Source: Anaeromyxobacter dehalogenans 2CP-1
GTDB taxonomy: Bacteria; Myxococcota; Myxococcia; Myxococcales; Anaeromyxobacteraceae
Length of the DNA stretch: 64,000 bases
Direction: 5' to 3'
Assembly: GCF_000022145.1 (NCBI RefSeq)
Contig: NC_011891.1
Coordinates: 2,058,001-2,122,000 of the forward strand
The position numbers and the translations under genes were made by a program. This document shows, one piece after another, positions 2,112 through 3,945 of this stretch (its first letter is position 1; every line of letters begins with the position of its first letter). The notes under the pieces were generated by a model, which was not told the DNA's origin, made no database searches, and worked only from the letters and a program-made list of their open reading frames with translations.

Positions 2112-2140
2112 TCACCGTTCGACAGGCTCACTGTGAGCGG
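2112..2140. repeat. REP-like element overlapping the 3' end of the HNH gene
   Basis: The core TTCGACAGGCTCA is followed by a hairpin GCTCAC-T-GTGAGC (2126-2138). Related elements with the TTCGAC...GCTCA core lie at 3523-3544 and 7330-7362. The HNH reading frame runs into this copy, so its last residues (S-E-P-V-E-R-stop) are encoded by the repeat. Confidence 0.6.
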
Positions 2141-2653
2141 AGTGGACCACGGAGCGTCGCCCTCGGCGCGTGTGGCGCTCTATCATCGCCGCCCCCAGCA
2201 CCCGCCGCGCGGCTTCGAGGTTGTGCGCCGCACAGAGCACGCGAAGGTTGCCCGGAGACGACTCCCCGCCCAGTGACAGCGGCACGAGGTGGTCGAGCTG
2301 GAGCGCATGCGTGGACCCGCAGATGTCGCCATTGGCGAGCCGCCACTGGCAGCACCCACCGTCCCGCAGCCAGACCTCGCGGCGCACGCGGGCAGGGATG
2401 TGACGCGGATCGCGGGAAGGGCGGGCCGAGGCCCGTGGCCGATCCGTGAGCGCAGCCTTCCGCTTCTCTGCCTTGGCGAGGAGGAGGTCCACCGCCGCCT
2501 CGAGCAGCGCATCGTCCGAGAGGTCCGGACGCAGCGACCGCAGCCGCTCCAACTTCTCCCCGAAGCGTTCACTTACCGTGACGTGGAGCCGCTGACGGTC
2601 CGCCGTGAGCGGCGTGAGCGCCGCCGAGCGTGGCGGAGGCGCCGCAGCGGTCA

Positions 2654-2826
2654 GTTCAACAGTTGAACCAGCCGTCCCGCCAGGGCCACCCAGTTCAACA
2701 GTTGAGCCGAAGGCCACCGCAGGGATCGCCAGTTCAACAGTTGAACCAGACGTCACGGCAGGGGCAATCAGTTCAACAGTTGAACCAGAGGCCGCCGCAG
2801 GGGCAGCCAGTCCAACAGTTGAACCG
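2654..2826 (-). repeat. 39-bp tandem repeat with palindromic core inside the HNH gene
   Basis: Five copies of a 15-bp near-perfect palindrome (GTTCAAC-A-GTTGAAC) begin at 2654, 2693, 2732, 2771 and 2810, exactly 39 bp apart. Copies 2 and 5 each carry one substitution. The 24 bp between palindromes are also related in the first four units. The period is a multiple of three, so the reading frame is kept and each unit encodes 13 residues around G-S-T-V-E-L. Confidence 0.9.
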
Positions 2827-3258
2827 CCCAGCGGCCGGACCGCCGTGAGCACCGTCCGAACCGGCGGCGCCGGATGCGGCGACAGCCCCGCCACGACTTC
2901 CGCCGCCTCGTGCCGCGACAGCCCGTAGAACCGGGGCAGGACCGTCTCCCAGTTCTCGCCCGTCACGACCCGCGCCACCTCGATGATGGAGGTGAAGCAC
3001 AGCCGCCCATCCCGCAGCGGCTCGATGACCGCCGGGACCGCCTGGATGAGCTCCGCCGCGACCTTGCGGTACTGGGCCGAGCCCTTCGAGAGCCCGAGCT
3101 CCCGGTGCAGGTATGGAAGAGCGAGGCGTACCCCAGGTCCGCCCACGCGCGCCGCGCGTCGAAGCTCGCGAGCGCGACGAGAAACTCCGTGAGGGAGAAG
3201 CGCTCGCGGCGGAGCAGGGTGGCCAGCCGATCCGAGAGTTCACGCGCAGTGTCCATGC

Positions 3259-3269: not shown

Positions 3270-3529
3270 CACGCGTTTCCGAGCCCTCGCCGGACGCACG
3301 CGTTCGCCGTCAGACGCACGAAGGGGAGGGGAAGATCGCGAACGCGCCCGGAGCGAGGGCGCGACGCGCAGAGAGGGAGCAGCGCGTTCTGAGCGGGGTT
3401 TCCGTGCGTCCCGCGCCGCGGGAATCGCCGCACAGTGAAGTGGCGTCAATGGGAACGAACGTGCCCGTTGGGTCGCAAGCAATCACTCAGCGTGATTCCG
3501 GTCCCCGCGTCACGCTCATGGTTCGACGG

Positions 3530-3601
3530 GGCTCACCATGAGCGGAAGACGGCGGCTCACCATGAGCGAAATACCGGGGCTCACCATGAGCGGAAGTCAC
3601 A
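3530..3601. repeat. 24-bp tandem repeat, three copies
   Basis: The 15-mer GGCTCACCATGAGCG occurs at 3530, 3554 and 3578, exactly 24 bp apart. It carries a small hairpin, GCTCA-CCA-TGAGC. The first copy joins a TTCGAC core at 3522, so the array looks like a locally amplified REP element. Confidence 0.85.
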
Positions 3602-3690
3602 GCAGCGCGCGGCCCCGGGAAGCCATCCCCGCCTCCCCGTCAGGCCTCTCGCAAGCCGATCCCCCCGCGCCGCCCTCGGCCAAAAAGGCC

Positions 3691-3945
3691 CGTTCCGCAA
3701 GCCCGCTGCCCGCCTCTAGCTCCTCTTCCACCACGCGCCCCGTCCCGCAAGCCCGCTGCCCCGCCTTCAGCTCCACTTCCAGGCGCCCCGCCACGCAAGC
3801 CCGCTGCCCCGCCTCTAGCTCCTCTTCCAGCACGCGCCCCGTCCCGCCAGCCCGCTGCCCGACCTCCGGCCCCTTTCCAGAGGCCCGCCCCGCCACCCCG
3901 CTGCCCCACCTCTAGCTCCCTTTCAAAGGCCCGCCACCATCCAAG
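3691..3945. repeat. Imperfect ~49-bp minisatellite-like repeat, about five copies
   Basis: The anchor CCCGCTGCC recurs at about 3701, 3751, 3799, 3850 and 3897, a spacing of 47-51 bp. Each is followed by a variant of a CTCTAGCTCCTCTTCC segment and a C-rich tail. Similarity decays toward 3945. Unequal spacing makes a coding origin unlikely. Confidence 0.75.

Follow-up and report, generated by a model that had tools for sequence, protein, structure and literature searches.

A palindrome array within an HNH nuclease gene

Why should a nuclease gene carry a tandem array of DNA palindromes inside its own reading frame, and which molecule, if any, reads them? This question is raised by a locus of Anaeromyxobacter dehalogenans 2CP-1, which we analysed within a 64 kb stretch of the chromosome (hereafter the window; positions 2058001-2122000). 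The initial annotation described five near-perfect palindromes spaced 39 bp apart inside an HNH gene and encoding in-frame 13-residue units, and both parts of this description were borne out, the first by coordinates, a Pfam HNH match and sequence shuffles. The palindrome, GTTCAACWGTTGAAC, is present in five copies at 39 bp spacing. Three of the copies are perfect, matching GTTCAACAGTTGAAC exactly, and the other two have a single mismatch each. Counted on both strands, the window contained 10 matches, compared with a mean of 0.15 in shuffled windows, none of which reached 10. The 39 bp units encode the 13-residue sequence GSTVEL... on the minus strand, and the frame is identical in every copy. 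The features of the locus are as follows.

3256..2112, minus strand: DUF222-like/HNH gene copy, with ATG at 3256 (ORF list, Pfam HNH)
3039..3121, minus strand: predicted helix-turn-helix stretch, family residues 46-73, with co-varying residues 51, 55, 60 and 63 (AlphaFold2, fixed differences)
2652..2826, minus strand: array of 39 bp units, one palindrome each, in the predicted disordered linker
2654..2668, 2732..2746 and 2771..2785: palindromes whose arms match perfectly
2693..2707 and 2810..2824: palindromes with a single mismatch
2457..2591, minus strand: ribbon-helix-helix-like domain, limits approximate (strand-helix-helix in a paralogue model, NikR match)
2229..2324, minus strand: HNH nuclease domain (Pfam PF01844 match)

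When aligned with three intact relatives, the window gene proved to lack one base between positions 3114 and 3113, inside the stretch encoding the helix-turn-helix, and it is therefore probably a pseudogene. The orthologous locus is present in two other species, which also carry orthologous genes of the window's subfamily. Copy-number variation among related HNH genes, suggested as a point of comparison by the initial annotation, was evident at this very locus, where the three species have 5, 1 and 3 palindromes; intact paralogues and orthologues have 1 to 4 units, versus 5 in the window gene.

Other repeats were observed around the gene. A REP-like repeat, GTTCGACAGGCTCACTGTGAGCGG, lies at its 3' end (2117-2140), and a threefold 24 bp relative of this repeat lies upstream (3525-3596). 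The REP-like repeat has 23 matches genome-wide, several of which are in HNH genes or no more than about 600 bp from one. A GC-rich tandem array with units of about 50 bp occupies positions 3686-3935 of the window.

Distribution of the palindrome and its gene family

Palindromes were counted by pattern search in the whole genome, a single contig of 5,029,329 bases. The exact palindrome of the window, designated A type, was confined to three HNH paralogues. Allowing up to two mismatches recovered 13 genomic places, 12 of them inside the same three paralogues; the 13th has two mismatches, a level at which a reversed control pattern also scores once. The idea of a dispersed selfish palindrome accordingly failed for the A type, and each subfamily was found to have its own palindrome. 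A small mobile palindromic repeat inserted in frame, in the manner of Rickettsia palindromic elements or PARCELs, would account for units that are in frame, palindromic and variable in number, and PARCELs provide a published precedent (PMC2996958). The confinement of the A type to three HNH paralogues speaks against such a repeat, as do subfamilies that differ in sequence at the same place rather than carrying copies of one unit, and we regard it as very improbable.

The HNH family itself has about 15 members in A. dehalogenans 2CP-1 and between 7 and 40 matches per Anaeromyxobacter genome, dispersed as units of 1.4 to 2 kb. The 16-mer of the B2 type occurred in 2 of 195 Myxococcota genomes. 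The B1 and B2 palindromes have a few intergenic copies, one of which sits in a gap that a whole HNH gene occupies in a sister species, and these copies fit either relics or further targets. An interval following a signal-peptidase-like gene (L130 1186-1490, L144, L091) contains a whole HNH gene in genome G001 and only palindromes in G000 and G006. Intergenic copies of TTCGGGCGCCCGAA at L128:1727, L154:1501 and L155:1501 have a matching upstream flank in three species and lie beside a REP-like array.

In the branches of A. oryzae, A. terrae, A. soli and an Fw109-5-like genome, family members, including those in 1.9 kb elements, were mostly without a clear linker site. In other Anaeromyxobacter genomes (G002, G003, G004, G005 and G008; for example loci L111, L115, L118, L066, L068 and L123) the HNH gene lies in a dispersed unit of roughly 1.9 kb, the copies being about 90% identical. 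The unit is bounded by short inverted ends resembling TTCATTCGTCACAT...ATGTGACGAATGA and has no further obvious ORF. These units are candidate mobile elements with the HNH protein as their sole product. In the Fw109-5-like genome, L111, L115 and L118 are flanked by hexanucleotide arrays such as (GGGGTC)n. A plasmid collection gave zero DNA matches to the family, and a protein search of it gave HNH-domain matches only; the match on an actinobacterial plasmid was a short HNH protein and not a full relative.

Selection on DNA symmetry in the linker

In a set of 27 units from nine genes, the core GGTTCAACTGTTGAAC was nearly invariant while the spacers were divergent. Codons ending in A or T made up 133 of the 135 palindrome codons, compared with 371 of 2945 in the rest of these nine genes. 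Other paralogues carried different palindromes in the same linker (TTCGGGCGCCCGAA, TTCATGCGCATGAA, TTCATCCGGATGAA and TTCACCCGGGTGAA), and relatives recovered by a scan of bacterial genomes carried further ones, perfect over up to 24 bp (e.g. GTTACTTCTGACGTCAGAAGTAAC, GCGGTTCAACCGGTTGAACCGC). Each of these conforms to TTC-nnn-CG-nnn-GAA or to a variant close to it in length; the site of the window's subfamily is one base shorter, TTCAAC-W-GTTGAA.

The skeleton TTCnnnCGnnnGAA was searched without requiring the triplets to be complementary. It gave 32 distinct contexts, all in linkers and in one reading frame, and the triplets were fully complementary in 25 of them, whereas about 0.8 of 32 would be expected by chance, as estimated from base composition. 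Skeleton contexts elsewhere comprised six in the N-domain, with 0 to 2 pairs each, and none in the C-domain. Compared with codon shuffles over the whole set, palindromes numbered 57 versus 11.6 in the linker, 6 versus 13.6 in the N-domain and 27 versus 16.5 in the C-domain. Taken gene by gene, the same count gave a weak signal (p up to 0.01 in 6 of 35 clusters), because high GC content yields chance palindromes. Genes fetched later, which had played no part in defining the motif, contributed new palindromes of 16 to 30 bp, including CTGGTTCATCCGGATGAACCAG and CGGACTTCGCCGGCGAAGTCCG, both of 22 bp, as well as GCGTTTCGGACGTCCGAAACGC, AAAGTTCACCCGGGTGAACTTT and the longest, a perfect palindrome of 30 bp, TTCGCGAGTTCTGACGTCAGAACTCGCGAA. 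Some of these genes came from genomes already sampled; the genome with seven copies of CGGACTTCGCCGGCGAAGTCCG was new, and belongs to a genus outside the motif-defining set. Self-complementary DNA in the coding linker is under selection.

Selection might instead act on STVE-type peptide repeats, with codon choice giving rise to the DNA palindrome as a side effect. Units that are in frame, in a linker that is translated, are compatible with this, but peptide-only selection was rejected by codon usage, given the near-exclusive use of rare A/T-ending codons noted above, and by the changing peptides. The encoded FRAPE, FHAHE, VHPDE, VQPVE, LTSE and STVE differ by subfamily while palindromicity is constant, and the window's subfamily reads the left half-site in another frame; we find a purely peptide-level origin scarcely credible. 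According to the initial annotation, homologues that kept the peptide but not the palindrome would mark the palindrome as incidental. The reverse was observed, in that palindromicity is kept and both the DNA sequence and the peptide change; the palindrome is not incidental.

Predicted domain architecture

An AlphaFold2 model of a paralogue, built on 63 aligned relatives, displayed a confident helical N-domain, a disordered linker with pLDDT under 50, a strand-helix-helix part and the HNH domain, in that order. The N-domain modelled alone reached a pLDDT of 90. Its top structural match (residues 1-127) was Spo0J-parS (4umk; Z 9.4 over 112 residues, rmsd 2.8), followed by Noc-NBS (6y93; Z 8.6) and ParB-parS (6s6h; Z 8.4); the first unrelated fold in the list scored Z 7.5, and helical domains readily give middling Z values. 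Foldseek E values for this domain were weak, at above 0.5 (0.7), and the Pfam families listed as matches did not include HTH_ParB. The KorB DNA-binding domain family appeared at Z 7.3 in the list for the full model and was absent from that for the domain alone, which is uninformative either way. These models support, but do not prove, that the N-domain carries a ParB/Noc-like DNA-binding fold.

By sequence, the N-domain belongs with DUF222: that of L012 scored 26.4 bits (Pfam cut-off 24.4), and 48 of 61 family members matched, with a best E of 2.6e-7. A ParB/Srx CTPase domain was found neither as a Pfam match nor as a fold in the model, in which the DNA-binding-like domain starts at residue 1. 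The strand-helix-helix part matched NikR (Z 4.2 over 44 residues, rmsd 1.6). The nuclease domain scored above the PF01844 cut-off in the window protein and L009, and the family conserves the HNH catalytic residues D315, H316, N330, H338 and N339 (D-H...N...H-N).

Association of site type with helix residues

Paralogues with GGG-type (12) and ATG-type (5) sites, drawn from three species, formed the contrast set, paralogues being non-independent samples. Of 284 aligned positions outside the linker, only 4 showed fixed differences between the two types, all in one predicted helix-turn-helix: residues 51 (R/H), 55 (G/K or R), 60 (A/S) and 63 (Y/L), which lie in or between the modelled helices 46-52 and 58-73. 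Among 6188 label permutations, one, the true labelling, yielded four fixed differences, and the others yielded at most one. Site type is thus associated with helix residues. Trees of the pre-helix segment and of the C-terminal domain intermixed the GGG and ATG types, with a support of 0.984 for L015 plus L018, suggesting that recombination among paralogues has shuffled the remainder of the gene while the helix and the palindrome stayed together.

Across the whole family, a partial Mantel test for the helix-turn-helix gave r 0.215 (p 0.0005). Other windows of the protein scored higher, notably residues 220-245 in the ribbon-helix-helix-like part, and the specific link to the helix therefore derives from one clear contrast, GGG versus ATG. 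The same triplet was also found with different helices (L206 compared with the B1 group), and L017 has both palindromes and a B1-type helix.

These results bear on whether the palindrome might act as a hairpin in the mRNA. Perfect arms are able to pair, and compensatory changes would be expected for RNA too. However, the sites keep CG at the centre and have no spacer for a loop, a feature not required of a hairpin, and the co-variation with the helix-turn-helix would be left unexplained; an RNA role accordingly appears improbable.

Proposed function of the linker palindromes

Taking together the sequence comparisons, the structural models and the analogy with known systems, we think it likely that each protein binds the linker palindromes of its own gene. 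Such a protein would begin with a ParB/Noc/KorB-like helix-turn-helix domain and end in an HNH nuclease, with a disordered linker followed by a ribbon-helix-helix-like domain in between, and a dimer would bind one TTC-nnn-CG-nnn-GAA palindrome. The site would be placed in linker-encoding DNA, where nearly any peptide may be tolerated, and the reading helix and the site would change together, giving each paralogue a private protein-site pair. The downstream effect might be intragenic repression, or steering of the nuclease to its own and sister genes, leading to copying or gene conversion. The initial annotation offered three options: a selfish insertion, a substrate for recombination, and a target or operator of the nuclease itself. 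The last is well supported by the palindrome/helix-turn-helix co-variation and the predicted ParB/Noc-like domain, and a dispersed selfish insertion is not supported.

An intragenic operator, whereby the protein on its own coding sequence would block transcription and keep the nuclease low, is a downstream version of this own-site binding that we rate as plausible, if a little short of an even prospect. ParB-family DNA-binding domains are also found in repressors such as KorB (PMC11790492). L187 has one palindrome twice, 311 bp upstream and in the linker, as an operator pair would, L039 has TTCGCCAGGCGAA upstream with a near copy in the linker, and the conserved catalytic residues suggest a nuclease that would need control. 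A matching upstream site is nevertheless absent from most genes, being seen in L187 and part of A. oryzae.

Alternatively, the nuclease may cut or nick at the palindrome, both in its own gene and in sister copies, whereupon repair would copy the gene and the family would spread. The expanded and dispersed family, the recombination evident from intermixed flanking segments and the few intergenic palindromes, one in a gap matching a sister species' whole HNH gene, would all suit self-targeting. Against it, an intact target within the gene would expose the gene to its own enzyme, and the intergenic copies could be remnants left behind by gene deletion, so that we view it as rather unlikely. The fullest scheme, in which the site in each gene forms a private protein-site unit that co-diversifies and survives paralogue recombination, and the nuclease acts on its own and sister genes to bring about copying, is put forward tentatively and as an unlikely whole.

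Should each protein bind the site in its own gene, the candidate DNA target of DUF222-HNH-type paralogues could often be deduced from the gene sequence. Tests of a ParB-like specificity code could then extend past the parS/NBS pair by drawing on the natural helix/site variants, which would also reveal whether nuclease evolution is compatible with a site inside the enzyme's own coding sequence.

Comparison with known systems

Several known systems combine some of these features. The gene does not fit a homing endonuclease, as the palindrome is intact inside the gene rather than interrupted by it; at the one pair of occupied and unoccupied loci compared, there was no interrupted recognition site. 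Rickettsia palindromic elements and REP sequences likewise do not fit, for want of wide dispersal, with the A type in three HNH genes and the B2 16-mer in two of 195 genomes. PARCELs, too, combine tandem repeats read in frame with dyad symmetry of the DNA, but they are 25-residue amphipathic units spread across diverse unrelated, often membrane, proteins (PMC2996958), whereas the HNH family has short gene-specific cores and, in the window's subfamily, 13-residue units with non-conserved spacers. The 13-residue unit and the confinement of the palindrome to one family place the array outside the PARCELs. ParB/Srx-HNH fusions have been reported in bacteria (PMC12704722) and share the combination of a ParB-related part with HNH; they contain the ParB CTPase fold, whereas the HNH family has only a part resembling the DNA-binding domain.

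DUF222-HNH proteins (the REP13E12-type family) share with the HNH family the DUF222 match of the N-domain and the C-terminal HNH. To our knowledge, such proteins are numerous and without an assigned function. They differ in that intragenic palindromes are, as far as we found, undescribed there; the open-access papers searched gave no report of intragenic cognate sites, whether in DUF222-HNH genes or others.

ParB, Noc and KorB, which act at parS, NBS and OB sites, resemble the HNH family in the predicted fold of residues 1-127. As far as the sequences go, parS and NBS are palindromes of the form TTC...GAA with a central CG, as are the linker sites of the HNH family. The NBS site is TATTTCCCGGGAAATA. 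The parS consensus is TGTTCCACGTGAAACA (PMC7614844), and no chromosomal parS core was present within the 64 kb window. Four residues located in or close to the helix-turn-helix of ParB were required to switch binding from parS to NBS (PMC7383237), and a few helix residues likewise separate the GGG and ATG types. The HNH family differs from ParB, Noc and KorB in having nuclease and ribbon-helix-helix-like parts instead of the ParB/Srx CTPase domain, and its sites have two more bases per half-site than parS and NBS. Unlike the ParB and Noc sites, those of the HNH family lie inside each gene and have diversified among paralogues.
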